Virus record (IMG/VR): IMGVR_UViG_3300032308_002252
Coordinates: 1 to 39,006 of that record
Strand: one strand, 5' to 3'
DNA length: 39,006 nt
From: a virus
Shown: positions 17,344-37,687 of the stretch, in pieces
Layout of the letters: every line of letters starts with the position of its first letter
How positions within the stretch are numbered: the first letter of the stretch is position 1
Notes under the pieces: model-generated
The model's database searches: none
What the model saw: the letters and a program-made list of their open reading frames with translations, nothing else
Told to the model about the DNA's origin: nothing
Program-made: the position numbers and the translations under genes

Positions 17344-17378
17344 TGCTATACTTGATATAACTAACTAGGAGGATCTTT

Positions 17379-17471: not shown

Positions 17472-17689
17472 TGAATCAGTATTGGTCGTGGCTTCTTGCT
17501 GCTATTGGGGTATCTGGTATATTCCTTGTAGGCAGAAAAACAATTTGGGGATGGCTTGTTCTTTGTGTTAATGAATTTCTTTGGATTATCTACGCACTAA
17601 CAACTAAGCAGTATGGGTTTATATTTGCTGCAATTGCATACGGAATTGTGTATGTTAAGTCTTTTATACATTGGAGAAAAACAGAATAA
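17471..17689 (+). CDS. Small membrane protein, probably three spans (72 aa)
   Basis: TAATG start. Trp-rich spans at about residues 7-20, 27-43 and 48-64, basic end. The pattern GRKTIWGWLVLCVNEFLWIIYALTTKQYGFI resembles part of PnuC-like or SdpI-like membrane proteins found in actinobacteriophages; not assigned. Confidence 0.74.
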   Translation: MNQYWSWLLAAIGVSGIFLVGRKTIWGWLVLCVNEFLWIIYALTTKQYGFIFAAIAYGIVYVKSFIHWRKTE

Positions 17690-17690
17690 T

Positions 17691-17828
17691 TTATTCTGAT
17701 TCTTTTTTTGTATGCTTTGGTGTATAAGGCTCTATTTTAGACTTAATTCTTCCATCTTTGTATAGTCTTACTATCCATCCATCTTTAATTTGCATTGAAT
17801 TAAATGCTGTTGCTTTTTTCTTTGGCAT
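17691..17828 (-). CDS. Basic micro-protein (45 aa)
   Basis: TAATG coupling to the oxygenase gene upstream on this strand. Very basic, Lys-rich at both ends with a central beta hairpin (MQIKDGWIVRLYKDGRIKSKI). Too short for usual gene cut-offs; may bind nucleic acid. Convergent with the membrane gene ending at 17689. Confidence 0.68.
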   Translation of the reverse strand: MPKKKATAFNSMQIKDGWIVRLYKDGRIKSKIEPYTPKHTKKESE

Positions 17829-18472: not shown

Positions 18473-19050
18473 ATCGAATGCTTTTCTCTTTTAACATTTG
18501 TGTAGTCCTTGCCAAAATCAGCAAACAAACCCTTATCTCTTTCACGATTAACAATTCCTCTCGACCAAGAGAATCCTGCATCTCCACCCCATGCTAACCA
18601 CATGATGTACCCGTTAGAAGGGTTTGCTGTGTTTCCCCAGTCCTTGCCCTTCTTATCTACTTCGTGGCGTGAGAAGTATGAGTACATTCTCTTAACAGTG
18701 CTAAGAGATAAAGATTCTCCTCTTGCTAACTGCCCTGCACGAGTCCAACCAACTTGAGTTCCTGCTCCAGTTGCTTTACCATCTTCTTTAAATTTAATTG
18801 CTCTACGAGCAGCAGATCTTGCTCCTGCTGGTGGTGAATATCCTTCAGCCTTTGATACTGAATCTGTTTCATAAACTACTGAGTCATCATCTTCAAATAG
18901 ATCATCTGCTTTTGCAGCAGGGACACAGTTAGGAACCATCGCACCGTTTTCTCCTGGCTTCATTCCTCTTTGAACATATCCATCCCAGCAAGGTGCTTGC
19001 TTATTATCCTGATAAGTTTGAGTTGGCATCATTGAGTCGTCTTTAATCAT
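18469..19050 (-). CDS. Phage structural-type protein with RMYSYFSRHEVDKKG domain (193 aa)
   Basis: The stretch from about residue 65 to 175 has a conserved phage domain: KATGAGTQVGWTRA..LARGESLS..TVKRMYSYFSRHEVDKKG and GYIMWLAWGGDAGFSWSR. I recognise this block from many phage proteins (often beside or fused to structural and head-assembly genes), but no function is established. The N-terminus is unstructured with two Cys (QAPCWDGYVQRG...VPNCVPA). Likely leaderless. Alternative: a virion protein delivered with the DNA. Confidence 0.7.
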   Translation of the reverse strand: MIKDDSMMPTQTYQDNKQAPCWDGYVQRGMKPGENGAMVPNCVPAAKADDLFEDDDSVVYETDSVSKAEGYSPPAGARSAARRAIKFKEDGKATGAGTQVGWTRAGQLARGESLSLSTVKRMYSYFSRHEVDKKGKDWGNTANPSNGYIMWLAWGGDAGFSWSRGIVNRERDKGLFADFGKDYTNVKREKHSI

Positions 19051-19070
19051 ACAATCATTATATCATATTC

Positions 19071-20192
19071 CTAGTTGATAAGGTTAGAGTACCTGCTTTT
19101 AATCAACTCTATGGTGTCCGCAGGCTCAAAATAAAGAACAGACTCTGGAAAAATTGTTTGCTGGTAATGTGTCCCTGGCTCACCATTTATTCCTGGTATT
19201 TCTGTATACTCTATATTAAAATAATCTGCCAGATCATCATACCAACACCTAAAGTCGTTGTCAAGATTAATAGATATTACCTTTGTGCCTGGCTTAGAAA
19301 AAATCATATTACAAAAACCAGAGGATTTAAGTCCAGCAATATGTGATGCTCTGCTATATAGAATTACCTGATCTGTGAAACTCATATTTTCTGGGAAAAC
19401 TATTTCGTACCCGATTGATTTAAAAAAATCTTCAATCATAAGTTCATCTTTTAAAGAAATAAACCTTGTGTTGTAATAATATGATGATTCTGAAAATTTA
19501 TTTGTATGTCTTCGTTTTTCATTTTCAATTCTTCTTGAAACAAATATTTTTTTATTTTGTTCATGACTGAGCAAGTATCCAAAAGTTTTTAAAAGATTTT
19601 TTTTTGCAACTAAGACAAAGTTTTTGTACTCAGTTGGTGCATTCCAACTTTCAAAAGCATCCCAGGAACCTATATTTTCCTTAAATGGTTTTAAAATTTC
19701 GTTATGTTCAAAAATATAATTATAGGCTTGTCTAAATAAAACATTATGATTATTATTTAAAACTATCATATCTTTCTTATAGTCTATTTTATAAATATTA
19801 AAAATATCACTATAAAGACTTTCAACTAATGAGTTAGCGCCAAAAGAATATGATACAACAGCAATTTTTATATCTGGTACATACTCTTTTATAAACTCAT
19901 ATTGCAATATTTTGTCGTATAAAAGATGAAAGTATGCAAAATGGCTTACATCAAAAATATAAACTGGATCTTCATATATAATGGTTTCTTTATCTATGTG
20001 TATGTTTTTTGAGTATGCTGCAGATGACAGTTCTGCATACTCTTTATCATTATCACTATGTGTTTCTGCATACATTCTTTTGACCATAGTTGGGGCTATT
20101 TCTTTTTCTAGCAGGGGCTGTAAATTTATAAACTTGTATAAAGGTTTTTTTTGGCCTTCTATGGCTATTTTTTCAATTTTTTCAACAGGCAT
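19071..20192 (-). CDS. GT61-like glycosyltransferase (373 aa)
   Basis: C-terminal half follows the GT61 (DUF563) pattern: KKIFVSRRIENEKRR, then GYEIVFPENMSFTDQVILYSRASHIAGLKSSGFCNMIFSKPGTKVISI. Eukaryotic members add xylose or GlcNAc; bacterial ones build capsule and surface glycans. The N-terminal HFAYFHLLYDKI matches the region where these enzymes have HF-H. Acts in the cytoplasm on a nucleotide sugar. TATAAT just upstream of its ATG. Divergent from the 20254 operon. The GA-G motif of typical members is replaced by LKSSGF. Confidence 0.75.
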   Translation of the reverse strand: MPVEKIEKIAIEGQKKPLYKFINLQPLLEKEIAPTMVKRMYAETHSDNDKEYAELSSAAYSKNIHIDKETIIYEDPVYIFDVSHFAYFHLLYDKILQYEFIKEYVPDIKIAVVSYSFGANSLVESLYSDIFNIYKIDYKKDMIVLNNNHNVLFRQAYNYIFEHNEILKPFKENIGSWDAFESWNAPTEYKNFVLVAKKNLLKTFGYLLSHEQNKKIFVSRRIENEKRRHTNKFSESSYYYNTRFISLKDELMIEDFFKSIGYEIVFPENMSFTDQVILYSRASHIAGLKSSGFCNMIFSKPGTKVISINLDNDFRCWYDDLADYFNIEYTEIPGINGEPGTHYQQTIFPESVLYFEPADTIELIKSRYSNLIN

Positions 20193-20253
20193 ATTAACAT
20201 TATACTACATCTTCCTATATGGTGTATAATTGTTATATAATGGAAGGCTTTTG

Positions 20254-21354
20254 ATGAATATTGTAATACCTATGGCAGGTCTTGGATCCCGCTTTCAAAA
20301 TGCAGGAATAAAGACTCCCAAGCCATTAATAGTCGTCAATGGAAAAACACTTATCGAGCACTCAGTAGACTCTCTTGGATTAGATGGAAATTATATTTTT
20401 ATAACAAGAGTATATGATGACCCAAAAGATAATGAAAACTTATCTTCTATATTAAAAAGATTAAAGCCAAATTCAGTAGAAATAAAAATTAATAAAATGC
20501 AATATGGGGCCGCTGATGCATGCCTATATGCTAAAGAATATATAGATAATGAAGAAGAACTTATAATAACAAACTGCGATCAATTGCTAAACTGGGGACC
20601 AAGTGACTTTATTGATTCTGTAAGAAATAACTCTGCAGATGGAGCGATTGTATTGTTTAACTCTTCAGATAGCAAGCACAGTTTTGCTGAGATCCTATCA
20701 AATAGGATTATTAGGCTTGCAGAGAAAGATGTAATTAGTAGCAATGCACTAGTTGGAATTCATTACTGGAAAAGTGGAAAAAGTTTTGTCAGTTCAGCAG
20801 AAAAACTTTTAAAAGAATATAAAAGTTTTGGTTTAAAAGAATGTTATATTTCAAACACATACAACTACTTAATAAATGATGGATTATATATTATGCCATA
20901 CACTATTAAAAACAATATGTTTACTCCATTGGGAACTCCTGAAGACATTGAGATTTATTTAGCAAAGATTAAAGAATTTTACACAGAAAAACCCAAAACA
21001 ATATTTTGTGATATAGACGGAACAATATTAAAACACGCACACAGATTTAGTCATATTGGTAAAGAGCAGCCTATAGATCTTGATGGGGTAATAACTAAAT
21101 TTAATGAGTGGGATTCCAAAGGGCATAAAATTATTCTTACAACGGCAAGAAAAGAATCTGCTAGATATATAACTGAGAAACACCTAAGCGAACTTGGCTT
21201 TTGCTGGGACTATCTTCTCATGGGAATTACCAGCGGGACAAGGATTCTTATTAATGATAAACTAAAAGAGTCTGATCCAGATAGGGCTATAGCCATAAGC
21301 CTTATTACTGATACAGGATTTGTAGATATTGATTGGAAAGGCTTTGATTTATGA
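20254..21354 (+). CDS. Sugar-nucleotidyltransferase/HAD phosphatase fusion (366 aa)
   Basis: Residues 1-245: NTP-transferase fold with MAGLGSRF (7-14), TPKPLI (21-26) and NCDQ (107-110), transferring a nucleotide to a sugar- or polyol-phosphate. Residues 246-345: HAD domain with DIDGTIL (253-259), TTARK (296-300) and ILINDK (331-336), a phosphatase of the type used on sugar phosphates. ATG at 20254 has GGAAGG nine bases upstream. Heads a four-gene operon (ATGA overlap). Together the domains could prepare an activated sugar for the GT61-like enzymes. Confidence 0.88.
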   Translation: MNIVIPMAGLGSRFQNAGIKTPKPLIVVNGKTLIEHSVDSLGLDGNYIFITRVYDDPKDNENLSSILKRLKPNSVEIKINKMQYGAADACLYAKEYIDNEEELIITNCDQLLNWGPSDFIDSVRNNSADGAIVLFNSSDSKHSFAEILSNRIIRLAEKDVISSNALVGIHYWKSGKSFVSSAEKLLKEYKSFGLKECYISNTYNYLINDGLYIMPYTIKNNMFTPLGTPEDIEIYLAKIKEFYTEKPKTIFCDIDGTILKHAHRFSHIGKEQPIDLDGVITKFNEWDSKGHKIILTTARKESARYITEKHLSELGFCWDYLLMGITSGTRILINDKLKESDPDRAIAISLITDTGFVDIDWKGFDL

Positions 21355-22307
21355 GTGTTGAGTATGGAGAAATAAAAAAAATAGATGTAGAAGGTTATGA
21401 AAGAAAAATATATCATATATCTGATGTTGTTTTGAATTCAGAATTAGAAGGAGATGGTAGGAAAATTATTGGAAACTCTTTTATATATTCTATAGATAAC
21501 TGGCAGTATGGGCATGTTCTTCAAGATGTTGTTGGACACTACGAATTTTTAAAAGAGTATGTTCCAGACTTGCAACTTTTAATACTTTCTTCAAATACTA
21601 AAGACTTTAAAAGCGGTGATTTTATAACAATGAGTAAAGTGATAGATAATATAATAGAAAGTTACCCAGACTGTATATTTGTAAACGATAAAGATAATAT
21701 AACTATTGAAAACTTATACTGCCTATTTGGACTTTTTATAAACCCAATTCGTGATATTATAGAAACTAATAGCCCTATTCATTCAGATGAAGATCTAGAT
21801 TTTAAATATCAGATTTTTGCGGCAAAGGCTGTTGCAAAAAAGTTTGGCCCGAAGAATCCAGTAAGTCCAACAAGGAAAATATACATATCTAGATCTTATG
21901 CTGATACTACTTATGAATACAAATCTCGTTCTTACTATAAACGAATGAGAGTTCTTGAAAACTCAAAACTTCTTGAAGATTATCTTGAGTCTCTTGGATA
22001 TGAAATTGTTTTAAACGAAGGCCTTAACATAGAAGAGCAGGCAAAGTTGTATCAAAGCGCTTCTCATGTTGTAACTATAAATGGCACTGGTGCATACAAT
22101 ACAATTTTTTGTAATCCAGGAACAACAATTTTTTTCTTAGAAATTCATACAGAATTTTGGTGGTTTTTTGATATTTTAACAAATGAGGTAACATCAAATA
22201 CTGTACACAAACTGCCAACTATCAAACCATCCCGAGTCGATGAAGGAAAGGCAATTCCTGTAGAAAGAATAATAGAGTGCTTAAAAAGTTATGAGGATGT
22301 ATTATGA
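21351..22307 (+). CDS. GT61-like glycosyltransferase (318 aa)
   Basis: ATGA overlap with the fusion gene. KIYISRSYADT, ENSKLLEDYLESLGYEIVLNEGLNIEEQAKLYQSASHVVTINGTGAYNTIFCNPGTTIFFLEI is the GT61/DUF563 core with the Gly-Thr-Gly-Ala-x-Asn active-site loop (about residues 245-250). NWQYGHVLQDVVGHYEFL matches the N-terminal His motif. Probably transfers the sugar activated by the preceding enzyme to a surface or virion glycan. A distant relative of the 19071 product. Confidence 0.82.
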   Translation: MSVEYGEIKKIDVEGYERKIYHISDVVLNSELEGDGRKIIGNSFIYSIDNWQYGHVLQDVVGHYEFLKEYVPDLQLLILSSNTKDFKSGDFITMSKVIDNIIESYPDCIFVNDKDNITIENLYCLFGLFINPIRDIIETNSPIHSDEDLDFKYQIFAAKAVAKKFGPKNPVSPTRKIYISRSYADTTYEYKSRSYYKRMRVLENSKLLEDYLESLGYEIVLNEGLNIEEQAKLYQSASHVVTINGTGAYNTIFCNPGTTIFFLEIHTEFWWFFDILTNEVTSNTVHKLPTIKPSRVDEGKAIPVERIIECLKSYEDVL

Positions 22308-22636
22308 AACTATCAAGGATAGAAGATGTTGATCGTGGCTGGTTTGTAGGTAATTTTGCAAAGGCTGCTTTTCAAACAGACGCCTGTGAGGTATGTTACA
22401 AGTTTCACACAAAAGGAGAGCACTGGCCTTTACATTATCAGGAAAAAATAACAGAGATAAATCTTATGATTTCTGGAGAAATGAGAATGCACGGAAAAAT
22501 TTTAGTTGCTGGTGATATTTTTATATTGTATCCATACGAAATTGCTGATCCAGAATTCTTAACAGATTGCGAAGTAATTTGCGTAAAGATTCCTGGTATA
22601 CAAAATGATAAAGTTGTAGTGGAAAAAATATTATGA
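22304..22636 (+). CDS. Cupin-fold protein (110 aa)
   Basis: ATGA overlaps on both sides. Cupin motif 1 appears as HTKGEHWPLHYQEKITEINLMISGEMRMHG (His at about 36, 40 and 44, Glu51) and motif 2 as LVAGDIFILYPYEIADPEF. Metal ligands are partly present. Cupins in glycan operons act as sugar epimerases or isomerases, or as small-molecule binders; which one is not clear. Confidence 0.75.
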   Translation: MKLSRIEDVDRGWFVGNFAKAAFQTDACEVCYKFHTKGEHWPLHYQEKITEINLMISGEMRMHGKILVAGDIFILYPYEIADPEFLTDCEVICVKIPGIQNDKVVVEKIL

Positions 22637-23109
22637 AAATAATAGCACACAGAGGGAATGTCAATGGGCCAGATATAGAAAATGAAAATAAGTACTCATA
22701 TATACAAACAGCAATTGAGTTAGGTTTTGATGTAGAAATAGATATCTGGGCTATAGATGGACAACTATATCTTGGTCATGACAAACCACAGTATGCCATT
22801 GATAAGCCGTCAGTAGCCTCTGTAGGACTTAATGGTTGGTTTCACTGTAAGAACCTAGGGGCCTTAGAATACTTCAAAGATAATTTTAATAGTCTTAATT
22901 ACTTCTGGCATCAATCAGATGATTATACTATTACTAGCAGTGGATATTTCTGGACATACCCTGGAAAATTAATAGGAGAACAATCAATAATAGTTTTACC
23001 AGAGATCATAGAAAAATCTAAAGTTATAAAAATGTTAGAATCAAAGCCTTATGGTGTATGTACCGATTATCCAAAACAATATAGAAAAGCAGGCCACCAA
23101 TTAAAGTGA
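22633..23109 (+). CDS. Glycerophosphodiester phosphodiesterase-like TIM-barrel protein (158 aa)
   Basis: KIIAHRGN at the start, ENKYSYIQTAIELGFDVEIDIWAIDGQLYLGHD (Glu and Asp metal ligands, then His) and CKNLGALEYF are hallmarks of the GDPD/PI-PLC-like fold; the end CTDYPKQYR matches the usual barrel-closing strand. It is shorter than normal GDPD (about 240), so the middle of the barrel is reduced. May hydrolyse a phosphodiester in the host envelope or glycan precursor. Its 3' end overlaps a hairpin. Confidence 0.8.
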   Translation: MKIIAHRGNVNGPDIENENKYSYIQTAIELGFDVEIDIWAIDGQLYLGHDKPQYAIDKPSVASVGLNGWFHCKNLGALEYFKDNFNSLNYFWHQSDDYTITSSGYFWTYPGKLIGEQSIIVLPEIIEKSKVIKMLESKPYGVCTDYPKQYRKAGHQLK

Positions 23110-23115
23110 CCTGCT
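23088..23115 (-). terminator. Terminator for the leftward 23129-25802 operon
   Basis: AGCAGG-CCAC and GTG-CCTGCT pair (one mismatch) around CAATTAAA; read on the minus strand the stem is followed by TTTTC. It overlaps the 3' end of the GDPD-like gene. Confidence 0.65.
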
Positions 23116-23128
23116 AAACTACTTAGAA

Positions 23129-23428
23129 TTAAAGGGCTACTGAATTGCCCTTACCTCCGCCAGATGACTTCTTTGCAGGAGCCTTCTTTGCGATCTTCTT
23201 AACTACCTTAGCAGTCTTTAGTGCTTTGTCAACCTCATCAACTGCTGGCATCTTTCCAAATGCCGTGTCTGAAGGATTGGCTGCTCTCAAAATGACTGGG
23301 ACAAGTGCTCCAAGTAGTGAGTATGCCAGTGTCTGTGGATCTGTAACTCCAGAGGCATACATTGCTGTTGCTGCTCCAAGTACTGATCTTCCGTATGATG
23401 CTAGTGCTGCTTTAATTTGTGCGTTCAT
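23129..23428 (-). CDS. Phage protein with hydrophobic core and KKSSGGGKG tail (99 aa)
   Basis: GGAGGAATAAA is the ribosome site. Residues 1-50 (AALASYGRSVLGAATAMYASGVTDPQTLAYSLLGALVPVILRAANP) resemble phage holin-like or membrane-associated proteins with two spans; the second half is Ala/Lys-rich and ends in KKSSGGGKGNSVAL. The same tail type closes the endolysin at 29783 (KKSSGGGGGKSHQVVM). Could be a holin or a capsid-surface part. Confidence 0.72.
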   Translation of the reverse strand: MNAQIKAALASYGRSVLGAATAMYASGVTDPQTLAYSLLGALVPVILRAANPSDTAFGKMPAVDEVDKALKTAKVVKKIAKKAPAKKSSGGGKGNSVAL

Positions 23429-23592
23429 TTTATTCCTCCTATAGGATATTTTTTTGCTTGACTATAATGTAAATCACACAGGTCGACAATTCTGCTTTCA
23501 GAACTTGCCCAAACCTGTGTACTTTCGTCCTCACACATTTCTTCTTCACATATAGACAAGTTAAGGTTACTTGTGTGCTTCAGGACGATCAT
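23425..23592 (-). CDS. Small Cys-containing protein (55 aa)
   Basis: Coupled on both sides (TAATG and ATGA). Three Cys plus His (CEEEMC ... CDLHY), perhaps a metal site like DUF7455 types. Function unknown. Confidence 0.65.
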   Translation of the reverse strand: MIVLKHTSNLNLSICEEEMCEDESTQVWASSESRIVDLCDLHYSQAKKYPIGGIK

Positions 23593-24005
23593 TACTCTAT
23601 TCTATCATAGTCTTCTGGTAGCAACTGCTTTAGTTCTTTGTATGCCCCAGAAATCTTCTTCATCGAGTTATAGTTTGGTTCAGCAGACATTAGGTCTCCG
23701 TAAGTATCAAAGTACATAACTTCAGGCTCAACATCAGTAATAAATTTATCAATCCCAGCCTGCACAGACTCTATGTATTCAAATGCCATGTCTCTTGATT
23801 TAGAAACAAATGAAAGAAAATCATCATTCTGTAAAACTGGTTTTTCCATTTCAGTCTTAAGTTTATCAAAGATAACTGCCTTATCAATGTGAACCTGTAG
23901 ATTTTTTTCTATAAGTTCTAGATTCTTAATCTTAAGTCTCATATTATTAAATGCAAGAAATAAGAATATAATTATTGCAAGACTATACCCTATAATGTCC
24001 AACAT
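23592..24005 (-). CDS. Membrane-anchored coiled-coil protein (137 aa)
   Basis: One N-terminal membrane span (IIGYSLAIIIFLFLAF), then a coiled coil (NMRLKIKNLELIEKNLQVHIDKAVIFDKLKTEME) and an acidic helical C-terminal domain. Topology recalls spanin or Rz-like proteins, but this is not diagnostic. Coupled to the oxygenase gene upstream. Confidence 0.72.
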   Translation of the reverse strand: MLDIIGYSLAIIIFLFLAFNNMRLKIKNLELIEKNLQVHIDKAVIFDKLKTEMEKPVLQNDDFLSFVSKSRDMAFEYIESVQAGIDKFITDVEPEVMYFDTYGDLMSAEPNYNSMKKISGAYKELKQLLPEDYDRIE

Positions 24006-24586
24006 TAGTCATTCTCCTCATAGTCAAATTGATACCATTGTGCTGATGTATATCTGTGTTTTCTAGTAATTGTTTTTACTTCATGAAGATATTGATCGTG
24101 TCCAGGGAATATCATTAGGGTATTTGCTTTTGGTTTTATTTTTTTATCAAAGTTAATAAAGTTAATATCTCCATTTTCATAGTCATCATTAATATAAAAT
24201 ACTGCTGCATAATTATAGTTTTTATATAGGTAGTCATCAACATGTGCATGCATTGACATAGCGGGTTTCCAAACAGTTAAACTTATAAATGATGGATTAT
24301 AATCTCCACACCTAATTGGATAATGTTCGTTAATCTTTTCTTTTCCAGTTTTAAAAATAAAATGCAACATATTTTTTATATTTTCTGGAAGATCACTGCA
24401 GACCCTGTTATACCAAAAGTCATCTGGGTCTGAGGATCCTTCAGTAAATTTTGCCTCTTTGCAATATTCTTGCAAAGTCTTAAGGTCTTCTTCTGACAAT
24501 ATGTTTACAAATTCTTTAATATTATCTTCTGAATTGCCAACTACATTAACAAATTTTTTATATCTCTCTAAATCGACTTTACTCAA
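24005..24586 (-). CDS. 2OG-Fe(II) oxygenase, prolyl-4-hydroxylase-like (193 aa)
   Basis: His115-x-Asp117 (HAHVDDYL; His113 is nearby), distal His168 (YLHEV), Arg178 (KHRYTS). YINDDYENGDINF is a degenerate form of the YLNDDYxGGELxF signature. KPAMSMHAHVDD resembles the 2OG-oxygenase superfamily members of phages. ATGA overlap with the upstream gene (24583). Confidence 0.88.
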   Translation of the reverse strand: MSKVDLERYKKFVNVVGNSEDNIKEFVNILSEEDLKTLQEYCKEAKFTEGSSDPDDFWYNRVCSDLPENIKNMLHFIFKTGKEKINEHYPIRCGDYNPSFISLTVWKPAMSMHAHVDDYLYKNYNYAAVFYINDDYENGDINFINFDKKIKPKANTLMIFPGHDQYLHEVKTITRKHRYTSAQWYQFDYEEND

Positions 24587-24819
24587 TCTTCTTTTCCTCC
24601 CTCTCTTACTAATAAAACAACTGCTCCGTTGTCCTCTAGTGCTTTTTTAACTCTAATCATGTACTCAACTGCATAAACTTTATCTTCTCCAGTTAGAGAC
24701 ATAAAATCTTTTTCAGATGCTCGTACTGATAAAAAATGATCGTTGTCTACTATTGTAAGAGAGAATCCTTTTGGTCCTGCCAATGATCTGACTGCTCTTT
24801 TCATTGAGTCTGTATACAT
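24583..24819 (-). CDS. Small basic-start protein (78 aa)
   Basis: Alpha/beta pattern (FSLTIVDNDHFLSVRASEKDFMSL ... YAVEYMIRVKKALEDNGAVVLLVREGG). The ATG six residues in could also be the start. Adjacent to the AspH-like gene with no gap. Function unknown. Confidence 0.74.
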   Translation of the reverse strand: MYTDSMKRAVRSLAGPKGFSLTIVDNDHFLSVRASEKDFMSLTGEDKVYAVEYMIRVKKALEDNGAVVLLVREGGKED

Positions 24820-25386
24820 TTATAACTCTATATATCTGTTAGGAATTATGTCAAATATTAGATGAATTCTTTGGCTTGGACCAGAGTTGTTAACTGAATG
24901 ATCTTTGGCATTATTAATTTCCCAAAGTTCTCCTTCTTTCATGTTGACTGAATGATTTTGAACTGAAAATGTAACATTCTCGCTAGTAACTATAGGAAGG
25001 TGGTGTCTTCTTGATAACTCAAGGTATGATCCAAAGTCTCTATGGACTGGTATATCACCTTCGTCAACAAGTCTAACAAGAAGAACTCTTCCTGCTTTAC
25101 CATCATGCTTTACTTCCATATCTTTTACAATTGGACTAACATACTTCCAAAAGACTAAATCATCCGCAAGTATAACTGGGTGATAACCATCTGAGATTTC
25201 CCAATTTAAATCAAAGTCCTGTAAGATATATGTTTCCGTATCTTTATGTATTTTGTGTAGTTCTTGTCTTGATGTGTCTATCTTCCACTCGTCAGAATAC
25301 TTAAGTATATGGTCTCTTAGTTCTGCAATGTCATAGTAGCCATGCTGAACCATTGTAAACGCTTCATGCTCTTTTAGCATTAACAT
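24820..25386 (-). CDS. Aspartyl/asparaginyl beta-hydroxylase-like 2OG oxygenase (about 188 aa)
   Basis: AspH family features: HRDFGSYL (one-letter His-x-Asp pair, about 115-117 from this start), RRHHLPIVTSENVTF, then GELWEINNAKDHSVNNSGPSQRIHLIFDI with distal His (about 163) and Arg (about 173). Hydroxylates Asp or Asn, or free acids, with O2 and 2OG. The start is uncertain (ATG 25386, ATG 25380, or GTG 25389). It is a different subfamily from the P4H-like enzymes here, widening the substrate range. Confidence 0.85.
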   Translation of the reverse strand: MLMLKEHEAFTMVQHGYYDIAELRDHILKYSDEWKIDTSRQELHKIHKDTETYILQDFDLNWEISDGYHPVILADDLVFWKYVSPIVKDMEVKHDGKAGRVLLVRLVDEGDIPVHRDFGSYLELSRRHHLPIVTSENVTFSVQNHSVNMKEGELWEINNAKDHSVNNSGPSQRIHLIFDIIPNRYIEL

Positions 25387-25519
25387 CACCTATCCTCGAT
25401 CCTATCCAAATCAATGCGCCGTGACCAAACGGGCAGTCAAATGACATAAAAATCTCTTCTGGAGTTTCAGTAGATATGCATGTTGAGCATGTATAGCACT
25501 TATATATGTTCTTGTTCAT
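25364..25519 (-). CDS. Small Cys-rich zinc protein (51 aa)
   Basis: CYTCSTCIS near the start and CPFGHG in the middle give Cys/His ligands for one or two metals. Ends by overlapping the AspH gene and begins inside the 3' end of the WhiB gene (20 bases), so all three are probably coupled. Function unknown. Confidence 0.65.
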   Translation of the reverse strand: MNKNIYKCYTCSTCISTETPEEIFMSFDCPFGHGALIWIGSRIGDVNAKRA

Positions 25520-28288: not shown

Positions 28289-29047
28289 TTAAAGTCCCAT
28301 TTCTTTACGCTTTTGTGTGGCAGAAATAGCATGAATATCTGCACCTAAATCTACTTGCTCAATCTTGTAACCTACATCTCTGCCGTATACAATGTTAGTA
28401 ATGTTAGGCAGCCTTAATACTAATGCGCCATCCATAAATTCATCCTTAGCAATATATTCTTTTACCTGATCAAACTTAAGTGGATCTTTCTCACTGGTAT
28501 TATAGGTATTACGGACTCCAAGCAGGACTTGTTCTGTTCTTTTGCCAGCCTCTTTGTAAAGGGCGTGGTGGCCTTCGTGCCAGGGCTGATACCTACCCAG
28601 CATAAGGGTCGTGGGGGCTGTCCAGTCGTGTAACTGGCAAGCAGCAATGATAAGGTCAGCCTCTTCTTCTACTGTCATACCACAAGGAATTCTGACATCG
28701 CATGACTCTGGATCTTCCCACATCTTATTTGTATCTTCAAATCTTCCAGACTCAATTCTGTCTACCCAAATTAAAATATCTGGCTTACCAAATGCTGCAC
28801 GAGTTAGGTCTGTAGGACAAACAAAATCCACGATTACTGGTGCTACACCCTGTTTAGAGATTAGTCTTGCCATCTCTCCCATACGACGGGCCTGCTCAAT
28901 TCTATCATCAGGACTAAAGCCTAAGTCTGAATTGACTGTTGCACGAACCTCATCTGCATTAAGATGGATAGCATTAATACGCTCTTTAAGAGCCTTTGCT
29001 AATTCTGTTTTACCAGAACCAGGAAGACCTATAATCTGAATAATCAT
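28289..29047 (-). CDS. P-loop kinase/nucleotidyltransferase fusion (252 aa)
   Basis: N-terminal half: small-molecule kinase of the APS-kinase/CPT type with Walker A GLPGSGKT (7-14) and an LNADEVRATVN motif. C-terminal half: cytidylyl/adenylyltransferase with GRYQPWHEGHHAL (His157-x-Gly-His160) and ISATQKR (241-247), as in NMN or phosphopantetheine adenylyltransferases. Fusion order resembles phage enzymes once proposed to act in sulphate, NAD+ or nucleotide salvage. Substrates cannot be read from sequence. Possibly remakes NAD+ consumed by host defences. Confidence 0.85.
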   Translation of the reverse strand: MIIQIIGLPGSGKTELAKALKERINAIHLNADEVRATVNSDLGFSPDDRIEQARRMGEMARLISKQGVAPVIVDFVCPTDLTRAAFGKPDILIWVDRIESGRFEDTNKMWEDPESCDVRIPCGMTVEEEADLIIAACQLHDWTAPTTLMLGRYQPWHEGHHALYKEAGKRTEQVLLGVRNTYNTSEKDPLKFDQVKEYIAKDEFMDGALVLRLPNITNIVYGRDVGYKIEQVDLGADIHAISATQKRKEMGL

Positions 29048-30721: not shown

Positions 30722-31393
30722 TTATTCCGTTCCGTCTGTATAGACTTTTTTGATCATATTGTGGTACCAGTTTGGCAATGCATACCTGATTCCTTTTGTT
30801 ACACTACTAATTTCATGAACAAAAACATAGTTTGATGGGAAAAATATTGCGCTTCCCGCTTCTGGCTTTACAGAAACTCCGTTTTTTCCAATGTGTGGAA
30901 AAGATATTACTCCTCCATCATAGTCATCGTTTAAGTATAAAACAACTGAAAGTGTTCTGCTGCTGGAACCATGGTCTGTGTGTGCTGGCAAGTACCCAGA
31001 CTCTTCATACTTAAGTATACTCATATTGTCTTCTTTACCTTTTAAATTCCTACTTGCATATGGGTAAACTTCTTGTGAATAATGCTTAAATGCAGTATCC
31101 AGGCCGTTAAAAAGCCTATCAGATATTGATGAGTATTCATTAAAGTATGGATCATTTAAATTTATATCTTCTGTTCTAGGAAGCCATCTTTGTTTGCAAA
31201 AATGTAAATCTCCGTGGTCCCAATTGTGCCAAGGCTTTACCACGCTGCTCTCAGGATTGTGCTCTCCAGACTCAATTGCTTTTGTAACTACGCTATCAAT
31301 ATTTTCAATATCTTCAATAATCTTGTATGGATCAGCAATTAGATTAGTGTAGTAGACTAATCCGTCCCCCAAAATTTCATATTTAAACATCAC
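30722..31393 (-). CDS. 2OG-Fe(II) oxygenase, prolyl-4-hydroxylase-like (223 aa)
   Basis: His138-x-Asp140 (PAHTDHG), His193 (FVHEI) and Arg203 (GIRYAL) with YLNDDYDGGVISFP (153-166). KYEESGYLPAHTD is the classic phage/cyanophage P4H segment preceding the first ligands. Has the longest N-terminal half of the six. The first of an oxygenase island that runs to 34297; four-base overlap with the gene upstream. The neighbour product may hydroxylate the same target in another place. Confidence 0.9.
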   Translation of the reverse strand: MMFKYEILGDGLVYYTNLIADPYKIIEDIENIDSVVTKAIESGEHNPESSVVKPWHNWDHGDLHFCKQRWLPRTEDINLNDPYFNEYSSISDRLFNGLDTAFKHYSQEVYPYASRNLKGKEDNMSILKYEESGYLPAHTDHGSSSRTLSVVLYLNDDYDGGVISFPHIGKNGVSVKPEAGSAIFFPSNYVFVHEISSVTKGIRYALPNWYHNMIKKVYTDGTE

Positions 31394-32214
31394 ATTTGCT
31401 CCTTCTTCTCTACATTATACACTCTCTTGTCATCTTCTGTCAAGCCTTCATCAGTACTAAAAACTGGAGACGGCAGTCCTGGTATTGAAAGAATGTGATC
31501 TACATATAGGCTTTGCCATATTGCCAATCTTTGTTTTTGAAATGCCAGAAAATCTTTATCTGTAATAAAATCATTTCCATAAATATTTTTCCAATGATCT
31601 TTTCTTACTAAATGAAAGAACAGTGCCTTATAGTTTTCTGCAGAGTCGTCTGAGTTCCACGCTGGTCTGTAATGAAAATCTAACTCTGGTTGAACAATAA
31701 TTGCATCATTTGGCTTAGTAATAAATTCTTTGTCATGTGCGACAAAGCCCCAATCACGATTGCCCCCTATGTGAAGATCTACCATGTAGCATCCTGGAGA
31801 CCAATCTAGGTGTACTTGTAAAAAAGGCTTGCGCCCTTCAGCAGTGATTTGATGATGAGCATATAAGTAATACCCTAGTTCAACATCTTTAGTTCCAAGA
31901 ATGTCTTGTGTTCTTTTAATTGCTTTATCAAAAAAGTGTTGTGGTATTTGTATTGCGTCTTCCCATTTATTCATTTGTTTTGTATATGCGATATCTTTTA
32001 CATCTTTTGATTCTAATATTTCTTTTAGTTCTTCAAAGTCTGATTTTTCAAAAAATCCATCAACAATAAATGGATCAAAGAACAAAACATTTTTTCTAAA
32101 TATTTCTTCGAATTTTAAATAATGATCTCTTGAGCAGTGTGTCCATTGGATCATGCCCTCATCTGGATGATTTTCTAGCATTGCAAATTTTGTGTTTCTA
32201 AATTTAATTGTCAT
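31390..32214 (-). CDS. Divergent 2OG-Fe(II) oxygenase-fold protein (274 aa)
   Basis: HQITAEGRKPFLQVHLDWSPGCYMVDLHIGGNRDWGFVAHD then NDAIIVQPELDFHYRPAWN fits the beta-helix fold with candidate ligands His135-x-Asp137 and His181. The usual 2OG-binding Arg after the distal His is not clear; KALFFHLVRK offers a basic residue. The family signature is lost. It may act on another substrate, or be a non-catalytic partner. Located between two P4H-like genes. Confidence 0.68.
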   Translation of the reverse strand: MTIKFRNTKFAMLENHPDEGMIQWTHCSRDHYLKFEEIFRKNVLFFDPFIVDGFFEKSDFEELKEILESKDVKDIAYTKQMNKWEDAIQIPQHFFDKAIKRTQDILGTKDVELGYYLYAHHQITAEGRKPFLQVHLDWSPGCYMVDLHIGGNRDWGFVAHDKEFITKPNDAIIVQPELDFHYRPAWNSDDSAENYKALFFHLVRKDHWKNIYGNDFITDKDFLAFQKQRLAIWQSLYVDHILSIPGLPSPVFSTDEGLTEDDKRVYNVEKKEQM

Positions 32215-32217
32215 TTT

Positions 32218-32763
32218 TTAATCCAAATCTGGGTCAACATGCTCTAGTTGTGTCGTGTGCATGTAAAGTAGAGTTGACCTTGATCCACTTTCCAATGGGG
32301 TAATTCCATGTACCCACTGAATTCCTCTACTTAGGAAGAATACACCAGAGTATTTTTTAGGTTTATAATTAAATCCTAATTTTGGAAAAAAGATTTCTCC
32401 ACCTTCAAACTCCTCGTCTAGATAAATACAAGTACTATACTCAATGAAAGGTTCTGGATCTTGGTCATCAACATGAGGAAGACCATAGCCTCCTGGAAGC
32501 CAGGTAGATCCAAAGGATTTAAATGTTTTAATATCTTTTTGTTCTTCTGGGTTTGCTTTTTGATGAACTTCGTTTGACAGTAGCGCATATTTTTTTTGTA
32601 TTGCTAAAGTTCTAGCATTATATGGGTATCCTGTCCCACCAAATCTAGTCTTGTAGTATTCTGGGTACGGATTAACTTCAGAAGGGCTCCTCAGTTCTTG
32701 CAGAAGAACATCGGCATCCTCTGGAGTAATAAAGTTTTCAATTATAAATGGCTTTGTTATCAT
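32218..32763 (-). CDS. 2OG-Fe(II) oxygenase, prolyl-4-hydroxylase-like (181 aa)
   Basis: His97-x-Asp99 (LPHVDDQ), His152 (WVHGI) and Arg162 (GSRSTL), with YLDEEFEGGEIFFP (114-127) and FNYKPKKYSGVFFLSR before the distal His. Shortest of the group with a compact N-terminal half. TATAAT and AAAGGAG lie upstream on this strand (leadered). Three bases separate it from the 31390 gene. Confidence 0.9.
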   Translation of the reverse strand: MITKPFIIENFITPEDADVLLQELRSPSEVNPYPEYYKTRFGGTGYPYNARTLAIQKKYALLSNEVHQKANPEEQKDIKTFKSFGSTWLPGGYGLPHVDDQDPEPFIEYSTCIYLDEEFEGGEIFFPKLGFNYKPKKYSGVFFLSRGIQWVHGITPLESGSRSTLLYMHTTQLEHVDPDLD

Positions 32764-32794
32764 TTTTTCTCCTTTATTAATTATACCATATGGG

Positions 32795-33637
32795 CTAATA
32801 CATGCTTTTTCCAGGGCTATGGAATCTTTCTGAGGACATTGAGTCTAGGTTCATAACAGGATCATATTCTATATCATTTCTTTCAAAAGGAAGTCTTGAT
32901 AATTTTTGAAAATCATACCCAACTCTACGACTAAGCAATTCAACATTAACTGGTGTTGGGAACAGTTTATTTGGAACAGACTTTAATGTATCTACTACCA
33001 TGTTATAATTACTATTTGGTGAGAATGGAATAAAATCATTATCGTATATGGTTCCAAATGTTCTGTACCAAGGAGTTGATAAAGCATACACCTCTATATT
33101 ATTTACCGCACAAAATAAAGAATACATCTCTTCTATTCCATTATGCTTAAGAAGTGAAAGGTTTGGCATACTTTTAAACCTTTCTGTTGACATAAAGATT
33201 AATTCTTTTTTAACCCAATTTGTTTTTGTTGTTGTCCATATTTCTTTATTGTTATATTTTGTATAAAATTTATATTCTGACAAATCAAAATCTAAAGCAT
33301 GGTTTCCAGATATAATAATATCTCTTCCGCCGTGTCCCATAACCAGTTCCATGTCCCAATTTTTTTCTAAGTATACTTCCCCATCAATATACAAGAAATA
33401 GTCTGAGTTGGAGTTTAGTACATTATTTCTAAGATGCTTAAACTTAGAGTCCATGCTATCCCACTGTATGTGTATATAGTTTCCTTCGTTAAACTTATCA
33501 TTCCTATTTAAATTAGTTTGATCATATACAGTTACAGAGACTCTGTTAGTCCCACTTTGATTTTTTATAAGTTGATTTACAGAGTCTGGTAAGCCTTTAC
33601 TTTTAAACCCATAAACAAATACGTCAATTGTATTCAT
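32795..33637 (-). CDS. GT-A fold glycosyltransferase (280 aa)
   Basis: DVFVYGFKSKGLPDSVNQLIKNQSGTNRVSVTVYDQ and HLRNNVLNSNSDYFLYIDGEVYLEKNWDMEL give a Rossmann-like start and the DxD-type metal site (IDGEV, 84-88) followed by the WD (94-95) seen in Gnt1-like GlcNAc transferases (PF11397 group, which glycosylate hydroxyproline on Skp1 in protists). The match is by pattern only; general GT2-like enzymes share it. Placed between oxygenase genes, it may glycosylate a residue they hydroxylate. Confidence 0.7.
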   Translation of the reverse strand: MNTIDVFVYGFKSKGLPDSVNQLIKNQSGTNRVSVTVYDQTNLNRNDKFNEGNYIHIQWDSMDSKFKHLRNNVLNSNSDYFLYIDGEVYLEKNWDMELVMGHGGRDIIISGNHALDFDLSEYKFYTKYNNKEIWTTTKTNWVKKELIFMSTERFKSMPNLSLLKHNGIEEMYSLFCAVNNIEVYALSTPWYRTFGTIYDNDFIPFSPNSNYNMVVDTLKSVPNKLFPTPVNVELLSRRVGYDFQKLSRLPFERNDIEYDPVMNLDSMSSERFHSPGKSMY

Positions 33638-34297
33638 TTACAGTAGAGGAATCCAGTGCTGCTGAATGGTTCCCTCATTTGAAATAAGAGACTCTAGTGG
33701 TTCAATATCATAGGCTACTGTAATTCTTGAGCCACTCCATTCCCAATCACCCATTGCATGTGGATGTCCCATTTCAGAAACAATTAGTCTATTATTTTTA
33801 TTAACATTGTCAACAATTTGATTGTCATCATTAAATAGTTTGTAGTGTGTAACTGAAGGCTCTGCGTTTACACAGTAGTATCCGTGGAAGTGTGGGGCAT
33901 ATGGTCCGCCATGATCGTGCCAATTTAACTTGCCAACTTCTGCATTGTTAATATTGAACCATCCTTGGACATAGTATTGCTTCTTATCAAAATCAATATC
34001 GTAGTATTTACAAGCCTCTTTTACTGTATCAGATATTGCCTTATACAAGGTATTAAGTCCTGTATGATAAAGTTGAAAAACATTATACTCTCTCCACTTT
34101 ACAGTTGACAAACTTCCAGACTCAATCCAGTACTTCTCATCATTTTCCATTGTATCGACACCACGAAGTTTTGCTGTTTCTATCAACTTATATTTTTCTT
34201 CTAAAAAGTTTTGAAGATCTGGCAAATCAATTTCAAGATGTCTTTCAAAAAACTTGTGTGGCTTTGATGGCGTACCACCATTGTTACTATTAATCAT
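33638..34297 (-). CDS. Putative 2OG-Fe(II) oxygenase, PF13759-like (219 aa)
   Basis: QGWFNINNAEVGKLNWHDHGGPYAPHFHGYYCVNAEPSVTHYKLF then MGHPHAMGDWEWSGSRITVAYDI resemble phage 2OG oxygenases with a NxH-P--SGvyYl-like pattern: ligands His127/His129 (WHDHGG), distal His178 or 180 and Arg191. HDH leaves the usual Asp ligand less certain. Directly follows the glycosyltransferase gene (one base apart) with its own promoter TATAAT and GAAAGG upstream. Confidence 0.72.
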   Translation of the reverse strand: MINSNNGGTPSKPHKFFERHLEIDLPDLQNFLEEKYKLIETAKLRGVDTMENDEKYWIESGSLSTVKWREYNVFQLYHTGLNTLYKAISDTVKEACKYYDIDFDKKQYYVQGWFNINNAEVGKLNWHDHGGPYAPHFHGYYCVNAEPSVTHYKLFNDDNQIVDNVNKNNRLIVSEMGHPHAMGDWEWSGSRITVAYDIEPLESLISNEGTIQQHWIPLL

Positions 34298-34326: not shown

Positions 34327-35073
34327 CTATACTTTCCCTGGCTTCGTGTATTGCTTTTTTCTCCAGGCAAATTTCTTGTAGTGTGCAGTGATGTGGGACC
34401 TTCTATTTTCTGATATCAGGTCATGCTTATCATATGTCTCTTCTGTTGTGTCAACTACTAACTCCCAAGGCTCTCTTTTTATTGGTATTAATTGTGATAT
34501 TGGAGTACCCTCTGAAATTGTTCCTTCAAAATCTCTTTTAATAAAAAATGGAAGGAATACTGGTAGGCCCCAAATATCTGCATCTACCAGTCCTGAAGGA
34601 ACCCAGAACGGTAGATCTGGTCTGTTGAGTGGCATTGTCATTAATAAAGAGTAGTCTTGTGGTGTTTCGTAAAACCATTGCATCTTTACTCCAAATTGTA
34701 TTGGGTGTACATCATGAGGTATTGCCATGTCTACATATGGCCTTTTATCCATTAACATAAAATCTTTTTTCCAAGAAAGTTTTGGCTTTCCATCTTTTGC
34801 TATCTCAACAGTTAGGTCATCTTCTAAACAGTACTGATACCCAAGAGTCATTGCATCCATAAATGGCATACAAAGTTTTGTAGAGACATTAGATCCATCT
34901 CCACCCCTATCATTTATTGGATTAAGTGCTGACAGATCATTGGTATCTACATGTCTTCCTAAATCTCTGTACCATTGAGGTATTTTTTTATATGCTGGCT
35001 CAGGAGATACCAGGCCTGTCTGATTACTAATAAACCTAAGTTCTTTTAAATCGTCAAACTCTTCCATAGCCAT
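34327..35073 (-). CDS. DUF6065-like protein (248 aa)
   Basis: SPEPAYKKIPQWYRDLG, MDAMTLGYQYCLEDDLTVEI and IQFGVKMQWFYETPQDYSLLMTMPLNRPDLPFWVPSGLVDAD...GTPISQLIPIKREPW match the DUF6065-type proteins, beta-rich and found beside oxygenase genes in other phages (recalled). Possibly a small-molecule-binding jelly-roll. Overlaps the 35054 gene by 20 bases. Confidence 0.68.
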   Translation of the reverse strand: MAMEEFDDLKELRFISNQTGLVSPEPAYKKIPQWYRDLGRHVDTNDLSALNPINDRGGDGSNVSTKLCMPFMDAMTLGYQYCLEDDLTVEIAKDGKPKLSWKKDFMLMDKRPYVDMAIPHDVHPIQFGVKMQWFYETPQDYSLLMTMPLNRPDLPFWVPSGLVDADIWGLPVFLPFFIKRDFEGTISEGTPISQLIPIKREPWELVVDTTEETYDKHDLISENRRSHITAHYKKFAWRKKQYTKPGKV

Positions 35074-35722
35074 ACTCTTCCTTTATTTTTAATAGATCTG
35101 AGTCTGAGACGGTTAAACCTATCTCAAACATTGGAGAACCTATATCAATAATACCATACTTGTCGTCTATCATGTGATCACCATTCTTTTTTATATTAAA
35201 GTTTATAAAAGGGGTATTTACGTATTCCTCCTCTTTCTGTGGCGGAACAAAATTAATTGAACCTTCTTCAATAACAAAAGGAGAAAATATTTTTTTTACA
35301 TTGCCTATCTCAATAAGTGTTTCAAATCCCAATATCCACGGCATATAAAATCTATATGTTGCAAAAAAGCAATCATTTGATTTTATTTGTTTTGGTGAGG
35401 GATAAAACTGCCTTTGATGACATTTATCTAAAGCGTAAAGAGATCCGTCCTGCCTTGGCTCTACCCATATTTCTGCGTGTGTTTTTTGCAATAATGTTAT
35501 TTTGTTTTCATTGATTGATAAAATTTCTGGTTTTGGATATAGGTTTGATACATATCTATTTACTGGCTTTATTAATAAACTTTTATACCTTGGCTCAAGG
35601 AGATCGTATCTTGCCCATTTTTGAGGCACAAAAGATTGTTTTTCTAGTTCTGGAAATAAAAGATTTTCTGAATCTACCCAGAAAGGTGATCCAACTATAT
35701 TGTTTTTAGTTTTTGTTGACAT
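35054..35722 (-). CDS. DUF6065-related or jelly-roll protein (222 aa)
   Basis: SPFWVDSENLLFPELEKQSFVPQKWARYD and WILGFETLIEIGNVKKIFSPFVIEEGSINFVPPQKEEEYVNTPFINFNIKKNGDHMI place it near the 34327 family though more divergent. Two such proteins in tandem beside the oxygenase island suggest joint use. Function unknown. Confidence 0.62.
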   Translation of the reverse strand: MSTKTKNNIVGSPFWVDSENLLFPELEKQSFVPQKWARYDLLEPRYKSLLIKPVNRYVSNLYPKPEILSINENKITLLQKTHAEIWVEPRQDGSLYALDKCHQRQFYPSPKQIKSNDCFFATYRFYMPWILGFETLIEIGNVKKIFSPFVIEEGSINFVPPQKEEEYVNTPFINFNIKKNGDHMIDDKYGIIDIGSPMFEIGLTVSDSDLLKIKEEYGYGRV

Positions 35723-35786
35723 TTTGTTTCATCTTTTCTATAAATATAACTTTATTTTTGATATTACACTACAATTATACCACTTG

Positions 35787-35858
35787 CTGGAATGGTAGGA
35801 TTCGAACCTACAACCTGTCGATTAACAGTCGACTGCTCTGCCGTTGCGCTACATTCCA
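35787..35858 (-). tRNA. tRNA-Asn (GTT)
   Basis: Read on the minus strand: acceptor TGGAATG/CATTCCA perfect, anticodon stem GTCGA/TCGAC with loop CTGTTAA, T-arm TAGGTTCGAATCCTA. Between oppositely read neighbours' ends; no CCA encoded. Confidence 0.93.
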
Positions 35859-35871: not shown

Positions 35872-36963
35872 CTATTTTTTCTTATAACCCTTTGGGCAAA
35901 CTGGTTTAACTCCAGTTACTTTCTTAACAAGTTTTCCCTTCAAACATGTAATCGTTGTTTTCTTAAGCACAGCAGCGTATGCATCTGCCTCTTGTTTTGC
36001 TTTCAATTCTGCAGCGACTTTTGCTTCTGCTTCTTGTTTGGCTTTTAGTTCTGCAGCAGCCTTTGCTTCTGCTTCTTGCTTGATCTTAATATTTGCTTCT
36101 GCAATTTCTTTTTCTACTTCATACTTTAAGTACAATTCTGCTTCATCAATTGCTGACTGATAATAGGCAGCAATATAGTAAACACTAAAAGATTTGTCTG
36201 ACCAAAAAGAATTATTTCTCATCGAATCATCTTTATCTGTTGAGCATGTAATTCCTGAAATACCAGTAAGTGCTCCTATGTATATGTATTCTTTATCTTT
36301 TTTAAAATAAAGAGGGCTTCCTGAGTCTCCAAGACACATAGTTTTGTTTGGTGAATTTATGACATCTATAAAAATATTTGGCTTACTTGCTAATAAATCT
36401 TTTTCTTCTTGGCTATTTCGAGTAAATGAGTTTTTTCCTAACTTGCTTACAAGTTTTTCTGGGTAATTATTTGTAGCAACTATTTTATTAGGAAGTGTGT
36501 ATTTAATTCCGTATCCAATTTGAATAACATCAATTTGATTATTAATTAAGTTTTGTACTTCATTTACTGTAGCAATACGCATAGGTTTTACATCTGCTAA
36601 ATCTTTTTCTAAAATTAAGATCATAAAATCTTGAATAGGTCCTCTACCACAATTATGACAATTATTAAATTCTTTTGGAATAATTTTCTTTATTACTTTG
36701 ACGGGATTAATAGAGTTGTCTAATGATACTGTTGCATCTGGTGGCCAGACATATTCTGAATACCCATGAGCGCAATGCGCTGCTGTGTAAACAATTCTTG
36801 GTGAAATCAAAGATCCTGAGCAGCCAGTCAGCAGGGTTTTTTCTCCAGTGACCAATACGACTCTTTCATCTCCTATTGCTGGAGATCCGTTATATACTGC
36901 ATCTGCACTGCTAGTTCCTAAAAAAGACAGAACTATGGACAAAAATAAAGAATACTTTTTCAC
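35872..36963 (-). CDS. Secreted trypsin-like (S1) serine protease with repeat tail (363 aa)
   Basis: GTG at 36963 with AAGGAG just before it. Signal peptide (KKYSLFLSIVLSFLGTSSADA). Catalytic triad: His63 (TAAHC), Asp112 (QDFMIL) and Ser214 (CLGDSGSPL). A C-terminal coiled tail has two AEAK-AAAELKAKQEA repeats and ends in TITCLKGKLVKKVTGVKPVCPKGYKKK, a Cys-x-Cys-Lys-rich cap I recall from secreted proteins of planktonic actinobacteria. It looks host-derived. Exported enzymes of this type in a phage may process a surface protein or virion proteins, or protect the infected cell. Confidence 0.88.
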   Translation of the reverse strand: MKKYSLFLSIVLSFLGTSSADAVYNGSPAIGDERVVLVTGEKTLLTGCSGSLISPRIVYTAAHCAHGYSEYVWPPDATVSLDNSINPVKVIKKIIPKEFNNCHNCGRGPIQDFMILILEKDLADVKPMRIATVNEVQNLINNQIDVIQIGYGIKYTLPNKIVATNNYPEKLVSKLGKNSFTRNSQEEKDLLASKPNIFIDVINSPNKTMCLGDSGSPLYFKKDKEYIYIGALTGISGITCSTDKDDSMRNNSFWSDKSFSVYYIAAYYQSAIDEAELYLKYEVEKEIAEANIKIKQEAEAKAAAELKAKQEAEAKVAAELKAKQEADAYAAVLKKTTITCLKGKLVKKVTGVKPVCPKGYKKK

Positions 36964-36964
36964 T

Positions 36965-37147
36965 TTACTCCTTAATTTTAACAACTAATTGACAAGGGTC
37001 TCCGCCTGCTTCCCATTCTTCTTGCTCTTCGTCACTCATATAGGGGTCTCCTTCGTGTGTATTACAAAATGGTTCTGTAATCCATCCCCGCTCAATTCCG
37101 TTTTCTATCCAGATCTGAAACTCTAAACTGTCTTCTTCTGTTATCAT
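36965..37147 (-). CDS. Small acidic protein (60 aa)
   Basis: Probably leaderless: TATAAT ends about eight bases before ATG. Very acidic with two Cys (FCNTHEGDPYMSDEEQEEWEAGGDPCQLVVKI), a composition common in small actinobacteriophage proteins. One base from the protease start. Function unknown. Confidence 0.8.
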   Translation of the reverse strand: MITEEDSLEFQIWIENGIERGWITEPFCNTHEGDPYMSDEEQEEWEAGGDPCQLVVKIKE

Positions 37148-37162: not shown

Positions 37163-37687
37163 CTAAAGGCTTACAATGTCAACTGGACCCATACAAGATG
37201 GATTAAATTTAATGGCAGCATTAACTGCTTGAGCAACTCTATTCCTTGCATTTTTTTGTTTATCTGTTGCATATAAAACACCATAGGCATACTCTGCTCC
37301 TGAACCCATAGCAAGATATGGAAGCATGTACTTAGATAAAGACATATCTCCAGAACTGTGTTCGTATATTTCTCCACGCACTGCGATAATTAAACCAAGG
37401 TCTCCGTCTTTAGATGTATCAACCCAGAACTCATTATAGAATTCTTTTAGTTCTTTAATAAATCTGGTTTGCATAAACTTGTCTGTATCTTTAATGTTGG
37501 GAGGGGTTGGTTTAAAATTAAAACGGATTCTTTCTCCGTCCATTGATCCAGCATATCCAATAAGATAAGGGCCTATCTTCCAAACCTTTGGAGCATCAAG
37601 TGCTAAAATAGTTCCATCATCTGAAGCACCACGGTCTCCAGCCATATAAATTTTGTCTTCATGTTTTACTACAGCAATACAGGTCAT
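37163..37687 (-). CDS. Proteasome beta/HslV-like Ntn hydrolase (174 aa)
   Basis: After removal of Met1 the protein starts with Thr1, with Asp17 (MAGDRGAS) and Lys33 (APKVWKI), exactly the proteasome catalytic set. AMGSGAEYAYGVLYA (about 131-145) is the conserved central helix. Length fits HslV-type subunits (about 175). Assembled rings degrade proteins with an unfoldase; a phage copy may serve in protein turnover or as a peptidase in assembly. Own promoter: TTGACA 37748-37743, TATACT 37724-37719 on the minus strand. Confidence 0.88.
   Translation of the reverse strand: MTCIAVVKHEDKIYMAGDRGASDDGTILALDAPKVWKIGPYLIGYAGSMDGERIRFNFKPTPPNIKDTDKFMQTRFIKELKEFYNEFWVDTSKDGDLGLIIAVRGEIYEHSSGDMSLSKYMLPYLAMGSGAEYAYGVLYATDKQKNARNRVAQAVNAAIKFNPSCMGPVDIVSL

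Follow-up and report, generated by a model that had tools for sequence, protein, structure and literature searches.

Can a phage carry, in a single cluster of genes, the means to hydroxylate a target and then attach a sugar to the new hydroxyl group? The question is raised by a 39 kb record of an uncultivated virus (the window, i.e., the whole stretch of 39,006 nucleotides analysed here), in which a predicted glycosyltransferase (GT) gene is surrounded by genes for oxygenases dependent on 2-oxoglutarate (2OG). The family at issue is PF11397, whose founder we take to be Gnt1. In Dictyostelium and Toxoplasma, hydroxyproline of Skp1 is produced by the P4H enzyme PhyA and then receives GlcNAc from Gnt1 (PMC3515798). 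In the open PMC literature, this P4H-Gnt1 type of hydroxyproline-linked glycosylation is described for eukaryotes, and we found there no description of a prokaryotic, phage or other viral P4H-PF11397 relay.

The locus consists of seven co-directional genes on the minus strand, running from 35722 to 30722 in the order A-B-C-GT-D-E-F. Gene A (222 aa, 35054..35722), a remote homolog of B, opens the conserved block and is followed by B (248 aa, 34327..35073), a phrog_7084 protein which is weakly DUF6065-like, and by C (219 aa, 33638..34297), predicted to have the 2OG-Fe(II) oxygenase fold. Then comes the GT (280 aa, 32795..33637), a predicted GT-A protein and divergent PF11397 homolog with a degenerate DxH motif (DGE). 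The original prediction had placed at 32795 a GT-A transferase with an IDGEV...NWD site, lying between oxygenase genes and one base from one of them, and all of this was confirmed: the site (residues 84-95, 33353..33388) is present and retains WD but not the canonical D-S/A-H, the TAA stop codon of C directly precedes the ATG of the GT at 33637 with a gap of 0 nt, and D starts 31 nt downstream of the GT. D (181 aa, 32218..32763) is a P4H/P3H-like 2OG-Fe(II) oxygenase by its profile, E (274 aa, 31390..32214) is a probable 2OG-oxygenase-like protein, and F (223 aa, 30722..31393), which overlaps E and closes the cassette, is again a predicted P4H-like 2OG-Fe(II) oxygenase. Hydropathy analysis detected no transmembrane-like segment in A-F or the GT. 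A promoter scan gave a number of sites not above that of shuffled sequence, and we therefore claim no operon boundary.

Since the window contains at least nine 2OG oxygenases, at least five of them outside the cassette, adjacency in a single genome means little and it is the conserved order that counts. The neighbourhood does recur. Searches begun from the GT alone yielded 50 distinct GTs, with C immediately upstream in 47 cases, B in 1 and a contig edge in 2, while the downstream gene belonged to an oxygenase family in 50/50 (D in 45, a C paralog in 4 and E in 1). When the loci found through C or E are included, C lies upstream of the GT in 51/51, and the complete A+B+C set precedes it in 48 of the 51 distinct loci, the other 3 being truncated. 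The spacing between C and the GT is mostly -4, -1, 0 or +1 nt, the genes otherwise overlapping to an extent that depends on the choice of start, which is as expected of translational coupling. Selection and an almost fixed gene order in about 50 distinct relatives show that the neighbourhood is not due to chance, and the cassette is conserved across a large and diverse clade of uncultured tailed phages. Named phages offer no context, because none of 50,697 phage records matched in tblastn searches with the GT, C and E. Some cassettes (L122-L144) carry tandem duplications, for example C-B-A-B-C-C-GT-D-F, with a C paralog that lacks the Fe ligands.

Assigning the GT to a family required going beyond the single protein. 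Alone, the GT of the window had no credible match in Pfam, PHROGs, the sequences of the PDB or the 50,697 phage records (sequence searches of the PDB with C, E and B were equally empty), and it did not match PF11397 at the curated cut-off of 21 bits. At the level of the family, 11/34 members matched PF11397 in profile searches (best E 9e-6; the homolog in locus L012, E 5e-4). By profile-profile comparison, the family aligned with the canonical PF11397 proteins of other phages (hhalign, 98.1%, E 8.6e-14, 186 columns) and with some 80 bacterial PF11397 proteins (98.4%, E 7e-15). The characterised eukaryotic members of PF11397 modify a hydroxylated protein. Of the two outcomes that the original prediction named as refuting it, a transferase of a lipid- or polysaccharide-specific family and a neighbourhood that does not recur in relatives, neither came about. 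The two families are also linked by position, since in locus L125 the gene standing in the place of the GT scores higher with the canonical PF11397 profile. The AlphaFold model of the GT is of modest confidence (mean pLDDT 64, pTM 0.66) and is indicative only; its PDB matches are GT-A enzymes with E 1.7e-5 and weaker (GT6, Mimivirus R699, GalNAc-T1), and its matches among viral proteins are GT-A proteins down to E 6.8e-13, including some named 'Glycosyltransferase, GlcNAc'. With dN/dS of about 0.08-0.13 the GT is under purifying selection, so the protein does something, and together with A it is the fastest diverging member of the cassette. Profiles and model identify the GT as a predicted divergent PF11397-type GT-A protein.

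Whether this protein is a catalyst is a more delicate matter. The resemblance of its site to Gnt1-type enzymes, also put forward in the original prediction, did not hold for the metal motif: DxH occurs in 0/34 cassette GTs versus 87/88 canonical PF11397 proteins (as D-S/A-H), and is thus lost in the whole phage family. In the window the site reads I84-D85-G86-E87-V88...N93-W94-D95, and across the family the DxH position is occupied by DGA (12), DGE (3, including the window), NGA (3) and also GDG, SKP, SSI and others, with D85 present in 15/34. The WD and EE motifs of PF11397 are both found in the GT of the window; W94-D95 is kept in 34/34, and E169 and E170 in 24/34 and 27/34, so EE is not strict. 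The strictly conserved residues are W59, W94, D95, F148, G167 and Y258, and D39 (33/34) and D60 (31/34) are candidates for holding a nucleotide; a C-terminal stretch (NDIEYD...LD...RF) is conserved as well. The GT-A enzyme BoGT6a is active with NXN and no metal (PMC3961637), and an altered DXD is therefore not proven inactivity. BoGT6a resembles the GT of the window in being a GT-A protein with an altered DXD, and it appears among its top fold matches; it belongs to another GT family, and its activity is proven whereas the GT of the window is known from its sequence and model. With no DxH in any of the 34 cassette GTs, catalysis is uncertain, and the protein may be either metal-independent like BoGT6a or a pseudo-transferase. 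A pseudo-glycosyltransferase would have a catalytically lost GT-A domain serving C and D as a binding or scaffold subunit (for a peptide, a glycan or a nucleotide), and the chemistry of the cassette would be hydroxylation only. The variety of the replacements at DxH, the location of the strict residues elsewhere and the rapid divergence of the GT and A, set against Fe ligands that stay intact in the oxygenases, argue for this explanation; we nevertheless hold it to be doubtful, given that D39 and D60 could hold a nucleotide and that some GT-A enzymes with an altered DXD work without metal.

The oxygenases themselves fall into different groups. C gave no credible sequence match and no Pfam match to a 2OG family, but its model is confident (AF2 pLDDT 87) and Foldseek matches it to 2OG oxygenases, among them PHD2, the P4H-EF-Tu complex of P. 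putida and antibiotic-tailoring oxygenases such as HygX and AviO1. The candidate Fe ligands H127-D128-H129 and H180, plus R191, are kept in 66/78 cassette copies, the copies without Fe ligands being a diverged paralog. C is thus modelled as a 2OG-Fe(II) oxygenase fold, a double-stranded beta-helix with conserved candidate Fe ligands; by sequence it is not of the P4H type and represents a 2OG subfamily other than that of D and F. Pfam matches of C to Tox-GHH, PoNi_C and BTB_3 were inconsistent between members and were discarded as chance. No relative of C turned up in 84,980 prokaryote genomes, which therefore give no clue to a host or a prophage.

With E values from 8.6e-6 to 2.6e-4, the profile of D matches bacterial P4Hs and prolyl 3-hydroxylase 1. 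D also shows a trace of similarity to Tet_JBP (E 0.15), and its H97, D99, H152 and R162 are present in 48/48 sequences. F matches PF13640 (E 2.9e-15), its profile also finds P3H1 and P4Hs, and H138, D140 and H193 are present in 45/45; D and F are homologous to each other (99.9%, profile-profile). The Fe ligands, the 2OG-binding Arg and the homology to solved P4H and P3H structures point to D and F as prolyl-hydroxylase-like 2OG oxygenases. Enzymes of this class vary in substrate, and the sequence does not decide whether D and F would hydroxylate prolyl residues. E matches phrog_2954 (E 2e-5) and has an HxD...H motif (H135, D137, H181) in 18/18, and its profile link to D is weak (26%, E 7e-4). 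The PHROG labels 'ferrochelatase' and 'DNA endonuclease' attached to E, D and F were rejected, as the same PHROGs match a clear PF13640 oxygenase.

The remaining two proteins, A and B, are homologous to one another (93%, E 3e-7, profile-profile), a relation found with deep alignments and missed with 6-sequence alignments. B matches phrog_7084 with E 6e-31 and DUF6065 with E 0.05, and it also directly adjoins canonical PF11397 GTs in other phages. Further homologs of B occur in about 50 records, nearly all of haloviruses (HF2, HJTV-2), where the gene is divergent to tail-fibre/adhesin genes and has no GT or C nearby (e.g., L151, 8932-9768, and L152, 7932-8816).

PF11397 proteins also occur outside the clade. 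Among bacterial PF11397 loci, 22/80 have a P4H-like oxygenase in the stretch examined, and 21 of those 22 are from SAR86 or other gammaproteobacteria or proteobacteria. A canonical PF11397 GT stands beside a P4H-like oxygenase in 17/20 SAR86 loci and in 4 further gammaproteobacterial loci; in the loci inspected the oxygenase is a divergent neighbour, confirmed as PF13640 for a sample (examples are L156, L205, L206, L226 and others, around 5300-7000). This pair is a bacterial candidate for hydroxyproline glycosylation and lends the phage scheme independent support; its occurrences may represent one inherited event, though separate from the phage clade. It resembles the phage cassette in that a PF11397 GT adjoins a P4H-like PF13640 oxygenase, but it is chromosomal and divergently transcribed, keeps D-S/A-H and has no homologs of A, B or C nearby. 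The canonical PF11397 proteins of other phages (L020-L038, XacN1, RAS14) are of the same family and several have B as a neighbour; unlike the cassette GTs, they keep IDSH and stand beside B or a carbamoyltransferase, not oxygenases. Not every PF11397 gene, then, is linked to oxygenases. In jumbo phages the PF11397 GT is directly followed by the carbamoyltransferase (XacN1, L039, 7992-11709; RAS14, L233, 6995-10812).

Our preferred, still tentative explanation is that the cassette hydroxylates and then glycosylates: the 2OG oxygenases would hydroxylate a target, and the GT, in concert with A, B and the adjoining C, would attach a sugar at the new hydroxyl. The GT would have to dispense with the customary DxH metal site, as a metal-independent GT-A enzyme could. 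We infer both the hydroxylation and the sugar transfer from the observed gene order, selection, folds, Fe-binding residues and PF11397 homology, and we rate their combination as possible, somewhat short of an even chance. The target would most likely be a protein: prolyl residues of proteins are the substrates both of the characterised PF11397 enzymes and of the closest relatives of D and F with a solved structure, and the cassette proteins all look soluble. As to which protein, we can only guess at collagen-like proteins of the tail or at host proteins of translation; collagen-like proteins occur in 7/11 records, but neither in the window fragment nor in three cassette carriers of 98-115 kb, and this patchy distribution leaves them as no more than a guess.

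Compared with the PhyA-Gnt1 pathway of Skp1, the cassette likewise pairs a P4H-type 2OG oxygenase with a GT of the PF11397 kind, that of Gnt1 being a GlcNAc-transferase, but the phage operon has several oxygenases, the extra A and B, no DxH and no Skp1. The narrower proposal, of an O2- and 2-oxoglutarate-dependent phage protein modification that hydroxylates then glycosylates, akin to both PhyA-Gnt1 and the SAR86 PF11397-P4H pair, with a metal-independent PF11397 enzyme and with C alternatively feeding a carbamoyltransferase, is one that we advance with considerable doubt. The loss of the metal motif leaves a working hydroxyproline relay, and the protein that would accept the sugar, putative. 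The original prediction is thus partly supported: its pairing of P4H and GT is borne out by the P4H-like D and F and by the SAR86 pair but not by the abutting C, of a different 2OG subfamily, and its hydroxylate-then-glycosylate scheme has in its favour the PF11397 kinship and the conserved oxygenases, and against it the missing DxH, an EE pair that is not strict, the modest GT model, the possibly single origin of the SAR86 pairs, the placing of phage PF11397 genes outside the clade away from oxygenases and the replacement of the GT by a carbamoyltransferase in sister phages. The phage cassette and the independent bacterial pair make a relay in prokaryotes, and the origin of the Skp1 pathway, testable; if true, the scheme would give a first function to some of the numerous 2OG oxygenases of aquatic phages and to phrog_7084 (B).

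Where C occurs without the GT, it is followed in nearly all long loci by a carbamoyltransferase of the NodU type, which in many relatives also joins the full cassette. In L076, L084, L112, L121 and others, C and this enzyme occupy the genome site of the window's GT cassette. The replacement of the GT after C by this enzyme, whose type likewise has hydroxyls as substrates, fits 'hydroxylate, then conjugate' in general, and it keeps alive a second rival, in which the oxygenases, the GT and the optional carbamoyltransferase would tailor a small molecule, a nucleotide or a glycan, as in natural-product or surface-glycan pathways. The association of C with the carbamoyltransferase alone, the presence of the latter in many cassettes and beside the PF11397 GT of XacN1 and RAS14, and the fold matches of C to HygX and AviO1 are consistent with such a role, which we consider unlikely since the cassette itself has no other biosynthetic enzymes, the nearest matches of D and F are prolyl hydroxylases and no carbamoyltransferase was found around the cassette in the window.

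It is more improbable still that the genes share no pathway and are independent accessory genes that accumulated in an insertion hotspot flanked by the HslV-like peptidase and the CHAP lysin. The site does vary among phages (C with the carbamoyltransferase, the full cassette or C alone), a tRNA-Asn gene (35786-35858) lies just upstream and the window has its other 2OG oxygenases, but the near-invariant A-B-C-GT-D order, with overlapping genes, is repeated in about 50 distinct loci, including phages without HslV nearby. DNA hypermodification, in which oxygenase-made 5-hydroxymethyl bases would be glycosylated or carbamoylated, is disfavoured and in our estimate very improbable: a phage-type carbamoyltransferase has been described for 5hmC (PMC8670742), the phage 5hmC carbamoyltransferase and glucosyltransferase systems likewise make a hydroxyl first and then add sugar or carbamoyl, and D has its trace match to Tet_JBP, but those systems need a cytosine hydroxymethylase or methylase, the profiles of D and F match prolyl hydroxylases, and no source of hydroxymethyl-pyrimidine (a C5-methylase with TET, or a dCMP hydroxymethylase) was seen, PF00145 (C5-methylase) and PF00303 (thymidylate synthase/hydroxymethylase) being absent from 11 records (about 1 Mb) while control genomes gave matches.

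The tRNA-Asn gene separates the cassette from a trypsin-like secreted protein (35872-36984), which adjoins the HslV-family peptidase (37163-37687), and the interval between HslV and the CHAP lysin differs from phage to phage. Elsewhere in the window, a second oxygenase-glycosylation region extends over 16140-25389, with four PF13640 oxygenases (16140-16715, 16765-17343, 17828-18472 and 24005-24586), an Asp/Asn beta-hydroxylase of PF05118 (24820-25389), two GT61 enzymes (19071-20192 and 21351-22307) and an NTP-transferase/HAD fusion (20230-21354). Finally, 28289-29047 encodes a fused kinase (APS-kinase/AAA-like) and cytidylyltransferase-like protein, possibly NadR-like.
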